DNA from: a virus
Virus record (IMG/VR): IMGVR_UViG_3300017963_000720
Coordinates: 1 to 24,993 of that record
Direction: 5' to 3' (one strand)
DNA length: 24,993 bases
Of the stretch, positions 7,256 to 24,979 are shown piece by piece; position 1 is the stretch's first letter, and the number at the start of each line of letters is the position of its first letter. A program made the position numbers and the translations under genes. The notes beneath the pieces are model-generated. The model searched no databases. It saw nothing but the letters and a program-made list of their open reading frames with translations, and was not told the origin of the DNA.

Positions 7256-7339
7256 CAGAAAGGAGGCTTTGATGCATAAAAAAAAATCCTTCCAAAAGGG
7301 AAAAATTAATCGCATTAAAAAAATCAGATTGCATGTAAT

Positions 7340-7369
7340 ATTATGAGACAAAAACAAATAAAATGGCAA
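7340..7369 (-). promoter_or_regulatory. Sigma70-like promoter for the LamG-like fibre gene
   Basis: On the minus strand TTGCCA (7369-7364) is 18 bases before CATAAT (7345-7340); each box differs from consensus at one position. It lies in the 207-base space between the two fibre loci and points at the 614-aa fibre, giving a leader of roughly 155 bases that contains the hairpin at 7195-7255. Confidence 0.5.
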
Positions 7370-24167: not shown

Positions 24168-24291
24168 CCTGGAATGAATTTTGAATCAAGTTGGCATAAC
24201 AAGTCAAGCTTTCGGAAAAAAACAGGATTTCATTGAATATATGTAAAATTTGAAAAAATGTGTTGTTCTTTGAAATTACAAGAACTTACGT

Positions 24292-24325
24292 GAAAAGACC
24301 AACGGCGGCATCCGTTGGTCTTTTC
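24292..24325. terminator. 14-bp perfect hairpin, terminator-like in both directions
   Basis: GAAAAGACCAACGG pairs perfectly with CCGTTGGTCTTTTC around the loop CGGCAT. The A-run at the foot of one arm gives a T-run in each direction, the form of a bidirectional terminator, although the T-runs are only four long. It sits in a divergent intergenic region, so what it would terminate is not obvious. Confidence 0.65.
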
Positions 24326-24371
24326 GGGCTAATTCCGTCCGACCCGTTGCGGTGGATGGTTAGCTGGTTAC

Positions 24372-24411
24372 ATCTATACTCTTGCATTTTGAATGCATGA
24401 GTTCAATAGAT
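24372..24411 (+). ncRNA. Leader RNA hairpin upstream of the 27-aa ORF
   Basis: ATCTAT plus ACTCTTGCATT (24372-24388) pair with AATGCATGAGT (24392-24402) and, after a 3-base bulge, ATAGAT (24406-24411); one mismatch in 17 pairs and a 3-base loop. It lies directly before the RBS-sequestering hairpin. Strand is assigned by the gene to the right; the transcript is inferred. Confidence 0.4.
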
Positions 24412-24422
24412 AATTCAGAAAA

Positions 24423-24480
24423 CCTCCTTTAACGAACGCACACGTTGCCACAGTGGACGGACACAAACGTTAAAAGGAGG
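24423..24480 (+). promoter_or_regulatory. Hairpin that sequesters the ribosome binding site of the 27-aa ORF
   Basis: CCTCCTTTAACG (24423-24434) pairs with CGTTAAAAGGAGG (24468-24480), 12 pairs with one bulged A. The right arm ends in the AGGAGG that serves the ATG at 24486, so folding would block ribosomes. The 33-base loop contains smaller stems (AACG-CACA-CGTT at 24435-24446; CCA-CAG-TGG at 24448-24456). The left arm also copies the anti-Shine-Dalgarno sequence. Confidence 0.6.
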
Positions 24481-24485
24481 AAATA

Positions 24486-24569
24486 ATGACCAATCAAAAC
24501 GGTCATAATTATCCCTCTGCGCCTCCGGGTTTTCGGTGGATCTTTGTTAAACAGTTTTTTTCTTTCTAG
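24486..24569 (+). CDS. 27-aa small protein or truncated gene behind a regulated leader
   Basis: ATG 24486 has a perfect GGAGG 5 bases upstream and runs 27 codons to TAG. The peptide is MTNQNGHNYPSAPP followed by GFRWIFVKQFFSF: a polar start, a Pro pair, then an aromatic/basic end. The PPGFRWIFVKQF phrase reminds me of the N-terminus of short phage proteins that continue with a GK-rich segment; if so this is a frameshifted remnant (the T-run at 24555-24561 is a natural slip site). Otherwise it is a genuine small protein. The elaborate leader argues against a chance ORF. Confidence 0.5.
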   Translation: MTNQNGHNYPSAPPGFRWIFVKQFFSF

Positions 24570-24601: not shown

Positions 24602-24630
24602 TTGACTATGGTATATACCAGTGCTATATT
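24602..24630 (+). promoter_or_regulatory. Promoter with palindromic operator for the 107-aa gene
   Basis: TTGACT (24602-24607), a 17-base spacer and TATATT (24625-24630) form a good sigma70 promoter. The spacer contains a perfect 12-base palindrome, TGGTATATACCA (24609-24620), ideally placed for repression. The GTATATAC core is also present at 4006-4013 in the replication promoter. Confidence 0.65.
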
Positions 24631-24655
24631 AGAAGTACAGCCAAAGGGAGACAAA

Positions 24656-24979
24656 ATGGCAAAAAAAATCAAATTAGGAGAAACCGAGTTCAATTTTGTG
24701 ACCATGAAAGCAACTGCAGATAATTTCACGGGAAGAGGACTGCCTAAGGAACTAGAAAGTGCCTTAGGATGGATGCGTTTGCTACAGAAAATTAAGAAAG
24801 GAGAAAATCCATTAAATCTTGGAATTGGGTATGAAAATGGATGCTTTTATTTTGATGGAAAAAATTTATCAAGTTCTCAATTGAGAATATGGGTTGCGCA
24901 CACCCTCCTCAAAGAAAAGGGCGAGACGTTAGTCCCGTTTGAATTCGGTGGCAAAAAAATTGCATCTTTCAAAGAATAA
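24656..24979 (+). CDS. Hypothetical 107-aa protein under operator control
   Basis: ATG 24656 is preceded by AAAGGGAG; the frame extends to 24578 but that start would precede the promoter. The protein begins MAKKIKLGETEFNF, contains a helical middle (LPKELESALGWMRLLQKIKK), an aromatic/Gly segment (IGYENGCFYFDGKNL), then SSSQLRIWVAHTLLKEKGE and a short beta end. No family recognised. The GK/lysine-rich composition and its own repressible promoter suit a small regulator or early phage protein, but no DNA-binding motif can be claimed. The plus strand and its promoter separate it from the structural operon. Confidence 0.7.
   Translation: MAKKIKLGETEFNFVTMKATADNFTGRGLPKELESALGWMRLLQKIKKGENPLNLGIGYENGCFYFDGKNLSSSQLRIWVAHTLLKEKGETLVPFEFGGKKIASFKE

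Follow-up and report, generated by a model that had tools for sequence, protein, structure and literature searches.

A probable bistable translational leader ahead of a truncated small-protein gene in a contractile-tail phage

A structured leader in a divergent gap

The window analysed here, 24,993 bases long, is the IMG/VR virus record IMGVR_UViG_3300017963_000720, whose minus strand carries structural genes of a contractile-tail phage (DUF2213 prohead protein, capsid, sheath, and baseplate J). The leader occupies the divergent gap before the DUF2213 gene and precedes a plus-strand 27-aa open reading frame (ORF) (Table 1). Direct searches of phage and viral collections yielded no close relatives of the leader, the DUF2213 gene, the capsid gene, or the ORF motif, so that the window stem around the Shine-Dalgarno sequence (SD) itself has no covariation to back it. 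Further downstream, the region 24602-24979 contains a promoter-like site (TTGACT-17-TATATT, with TG preceding the second hexamer) ahead of a 107-aa ORF (24656-24979) without Pfam, NCBIfam, or PADLOC match. A second strong SD (AAAGGAGG) lies at 7260-7346, directly 5' of a short lysine-rich plus-strand ORF (MHKKKSFQKGKINRIKKIRLHVIL) situated in a gap separating minus-strand genes.

Table 1. Plus-strand features of the leader and the short ORF in the window
Feature	Positions	Strand	Remarks
P0 hairpin	24291-24326	+	15 bp, loop CGGCAT; at this place relatives form a hairpin whose loop is CGCCAA, CTGCAA, or CGGCAA
P1 imperfect hairpin	24327-24365	+	3' side GGATGGTT (24354-24361) has the anti-SD strand as an alternative partner
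CTGG, 5' strand of the helix likened to the CUUG of relatives	24364-24367	+	pairs with TCAG 24415-24418; presumed equivalent
P3 hairpin	24372-24411	+	-
TCAG, likened to the CAAG of relatives	24415-24418	+	presumed equivalent
Anti-SD strand AACCTCCTTTAACG	24421-24434	+	partner is the SD strand or P1
SD strand CGTTAAAAGGAGG	24468-24480	+	AGGAGG at 24475-24480
27-aa ORF	24486-24569	+	ATG at 24486; N-terminal half of the ~45-aa family, C-terminal half missing

The first-pass annotation had proposed that the ribosome binding site of the ORF is hidden, and this holds: CCTCCTTTAACG (24423-24434) pairs with the SD strand so that AGGAGG lies entirely within the resulting 12-bp stem, made of 8 bp and 4 bp flanking a bulged A at 24472. 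Shuffle tests confirmed that the stem exceeds chance. An upstream strand pairing equally well with the SD strand occurred in only one of 5000 dinucleotide shuffles, and the 83-nt fold (z = -3.5) and the 331-nt region (z = -4.4) were matched in stability by none of 200 and none of 100 shuffles, respectively. The predicted probability of the SD being unpaired is 0.07, against 0.51 in shuffles, none of which (0/200) reached an equally low value.

The two further hairpins that had been described upstream are also present (P1 and P3), but the structure begins further upstream than had been described, at 24291 with an additional hairpin, P0. The loop of P0 differs by one base from the CGGCAA seen in two relatives. 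P0 resembles a terminator; that it merely terminates an upstream gene is unlikely in the window because no plus-strand gene precedes it. The possible long-range pairing mentioned in the same annotation can take either of two forms. One candidate, which joins GGA/GGTT (24354-24361) to AACCTCC (24421-24427) together with CTGG to TCAG, beats shuffles (24 of 3000 as good); the other, between TCCGTCCG (24334-24341) and TGGACGGA (24454-24461), does not (774 of 3000). Shuffles do as well as the CCGTCC/GGACGG portion of the open-state fold. Minimum-energy folds place the anti-SD strand with its upstream P1 partner in transcripts ending between 24436 and 24473 and in the SD stem in transcripts that include the SD, with predicted energies of -75.6 kcal/mol for the closed state and -68.7 kcal/mol for that with the SD open. 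P1 and the ORF share a near repeat (TTGCGGTGGAT / TTTCGGTGGAT, at 24347-24357 and 24531-24541, respectively).

The short ORF and a family of ~45-aa proteins

Alone, the 27-aa ORF has no Pfam, NCBIfam, or PADLOC match and hits phages at chance level only. Relatives were first found with a chimeric probe made of the window N-terminus and a presumed family C-terminus, which served as a lead only. Genuine members turned up with it in plasmids and a phage record, and later searches extended them to 60 genome loci and 51 viral contigs; in all, roughly 100 different full-length sequences were read, drawn from genomes, plasmids, and prophage contigs. One pattern match (L005) was discarded as a chance match in a different reading frame. 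Against a profile of 53 members, the window ORF scores 25.2 bits (E = 5e-7 among 758 frames), a value that is mildly circular as the search probe included the window N-terminus; the next frame reaches 6.7, and 15,160 shuffled frames give at most 11.0. It is also matched by profiles restricted to class A (2e-5) or class B (7.6e-8). These comparisons show computationally that the ORF is homologous to the family, and the idea that it is a free-standing gene has to be given up: it corresponds to the N-terminal half (SAPPGFRWIFVKQF) of a longer protein. It retains the N-terminal motif AP-x-G-[FY]-[RK]-W-[VI]-[FY] and lacks the C-terminal half ending in FLVR, the profile match and the ORF both finishing after FVKQFFSF. 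The ORF thereby ends past the stretch that aligns with the initial beta-strand predicted for family members. We considered a frameshift at the poly-T tract where the stop falls, but the other frames bear no resemblance to the missing half. Since the ORF is truncated with respect to its full-length relatives (42-61 aa), the small peptide earlier suggested as its product is probably not a working one; the window copy probably makes no functional family protein, and its intact part is the leader.

Members of the family are basic and have no significant Pfam or NCBIfam match, and most relatives give nothing with PADLOC. AlphaFold predicts a small beta structure with confidence (mean pLDDT 88.6, pTM 0.52), for which fold and sequence comparison gave no PDB match. 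Two PHROG families for which no function is given match some of them, phrog_33859 three class A proteins (1.5e-26 to 1.7e-19) and phrog_30400 one class B protein (1.4e-4), and neither model finds the window ORF. Our literature search returned nothing on the ~45-aa proteins, nor any description of their leader. The family is widespread, occurring on chromosomes, plasmids, and prophages of Proteobacteria, Planctomycetota, Nitrospirae, Acidobacteria, and others, and it is rare (one class sample of 274 genomes yielded 3 carriers, including the seed genome).

The neighbourhood of the relatives does not support the link to a phage structural operon that the position of the window copy had suggested, as most of them are found instead behind regulator or defence-like genes. 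BLAST places an ImmA/IrrE gene ahead of the family gene at 26 of the 60 genome loci, with an HTH gene also detected at 25 of these 26. Other loci lie behind members of a winged-helix-like protein family or behind a SAM-like integrase-N protein, and some have no recognised partner, including three located behind a ribonucleotide reductase gene. At locus L024 (1224-2315), the partner combines a winged-helix-like N-terminus, related to other partners, with a CAP12/PDC-S35-like TIR C-terminus. On a Pseudomonas putida plasmid (L012), the family member (1489-1617) is directly followed by a gene annotated as a CBASS phospholipase (1675-2685).

A covarying helix in leaders of the relatives

The leaders of the relatives have a common plan, read by eye first and then tested, in which P0, a hairpin lying shortly after the partner gene (CGCCAA being the best-hairpin loop in 19 leaders), is followed by P1, a long-range CUUG/CAAG helix, and a strand just 5' of the SD. 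This last strand can pair either near the SD or with the loop of P1; the latter helix, H1, and P1 together form a pseudoknot. Pairing in subgroup A2 extends to 97% of H1 cells, and five of seven H1 pairs have compensatory changes, so that covariation of the alternative helix is shown computationally in the relatives; the whole structure reaches 98% in this subgroup versus 38-53% in slid controls. In class B, the H1 strand begins 1 nt past CAAG in eight of nine leaders (0 nt in the remaining one; L052 and L073 are included in the nine), and the helices are perfect in seven of the nine when G-U pairs are allowed. When own leaders were compared with swapped ones, the pairing proved specific, with 14 of 62 ranking in the top 5% (p = 2e-6), though the median rank was only 0.20. 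Hiding of the SD across the family goes only modestly beyond shuffles (median unpaired probability 0.28 versus 0.36, with 39 of 54 leaders below). In 32 of 53 leaders, adding the SD is predicted to detach the SD-adjacent strand from its upstream partner; these predictions omit the pseudoknot, as the folding program does not allow P1 and H1 at the same time. Out-of-frame ATGs occur 1-10 nt 5' of the family start codon in 55 of 98 leaders (for example at L004, L006, L028, L036, and L048), exactly 4 nt before it in 28 of these 55, as if initiation were held inefficient.

The order of elements in the window (P0, P1, P3, anti-SD strand, SD, ATG) agrees with this plan, and the helices are presumably equivalent to those of the relatives. 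The window segment TTCAG-AAAA-CCTCC resembles the CAAG-AAAAAT-CTCC of relatives such as L036, the exact CAAG motif being absent. Because the window was not detected by the covariance model R1, for which eight class B leaders were used and which also misses most class A leaders, the case for the window leader is based on architecture and on the ORF; what we claim is a shared architecture, sequence homology not being proven.

A candidate bistable switch

We propose, with a probability of about 0.6, that the window contains a bistable translational leader within a phage copy, orphaned and truncated at the C-terminus, of a module composed of such a leader and a ~45-aa protein. During transcription, the upstream P1 region would hold the anti-SD strand, and the predicted nascent fold would leave the SD free; completion of the SD would then allow the anti-SD strand to swap partner and close the SD stem. 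Steady-state translation would be low, and synthesis would occur only as a burst or when conditions stabilised the upstream pairing. We infer this two-state behaviour in the cell, as well as its kinetics and trigger. Of the translational switch originally put forward, the SD-hiding leader is supported both by shuffle statistics and by the relatives, in which the strand adjacent to the SD has a compensated upstream partner, and the thermometer variant falls away.

The chief rival is that the window copy is a relic, a module that was acquired, then lost its C-terminal half and its partner, and whose leader is no longer under selection. The stop at the poly-T tract just past the conserved N-terminal motif, with no other frame restoring the rest, speaks for such decay, and no partner gene for the ORF exists within the window. 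We nevertheless consider this reading less likely, as leader, SD, and start codon are all intact, most relatives have a shorter SD stem than the window, and orphan copies with intact ORFs and leaders do exist (L019, L038, and L044, behind the ribonucleotide reductase gene). An intact leader beside a shortened protein in a phage, combined with the resemblance of most relatives to mobile regulator or defence-like loci, could also suggest a decoy, in which retaining the leader together with a harmless stub would let the phage titrate some factor of the host's module or interfere with that module; this is improbable given that the leader has no known trans-acting partner and that the 16 viral-contig matches to the N-terminal pattern include no second truncated phage copy. 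Least credible of all is an RNA thermometer, in which heat would melt the single stem that contains the SD, since the predicted accessibility of the SD stays flat at 0.072-0.075 from 15 to 42 °C.

A bistable leader would have parallels among known systems. In riboswitches and other translational leaders, anti-SD pairing competes with anti-anti-SD pairing. As in riboswitch-type leaders, the predicted pairings of the window anti-SD strand are mutually exclusive; unlike them, the window leader has no known ligand and no Rfam match at gathering score (only noise below it), and the gene family regulated is that of a ~45-aa protein without assigned function, no Rfam, Pfam, or NCBIfam family fitting either leader or protein. 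Type I toxin mRNAs, such as hok and AapA1/AapA3, have a hidden SD and metastable folds (PMC6733600), and they share with the window a short ORF, an anti-SD that traps the SD, and folds predicted to shift as transcription proceeds. AapA3 of Helicobacter is a precedent for a short ORF protected by folds that change; there, a distant anti-SD forms the final trap and transient hairpins already hide the SD (PMC6733600), whereas the window has its anti-SD upstream, and its nascent transcript is predicted to fold with the SD free. The proteins differ as well, those of our family being basic and beta-rich, not hydrophobic.

More tentatively, the leader and the ~45-aa protein, often located behind a DNA-binding or ImmA/IrrE regulator, might constitute an undescribed mobile defence- or toxin-like system under a pseudoknot-controlled translational switch, of which the phage carries a truncated copy. 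One odd phage leader has in this way led to an apparently undescribed module of RNA and small protein. From the covarying helix between loop and anti-SD strand comes a sharp and easily tested model for a bistable translational switch. Because regulator and TIR partners recur, a role in defence or as a toxin can be tested directly.
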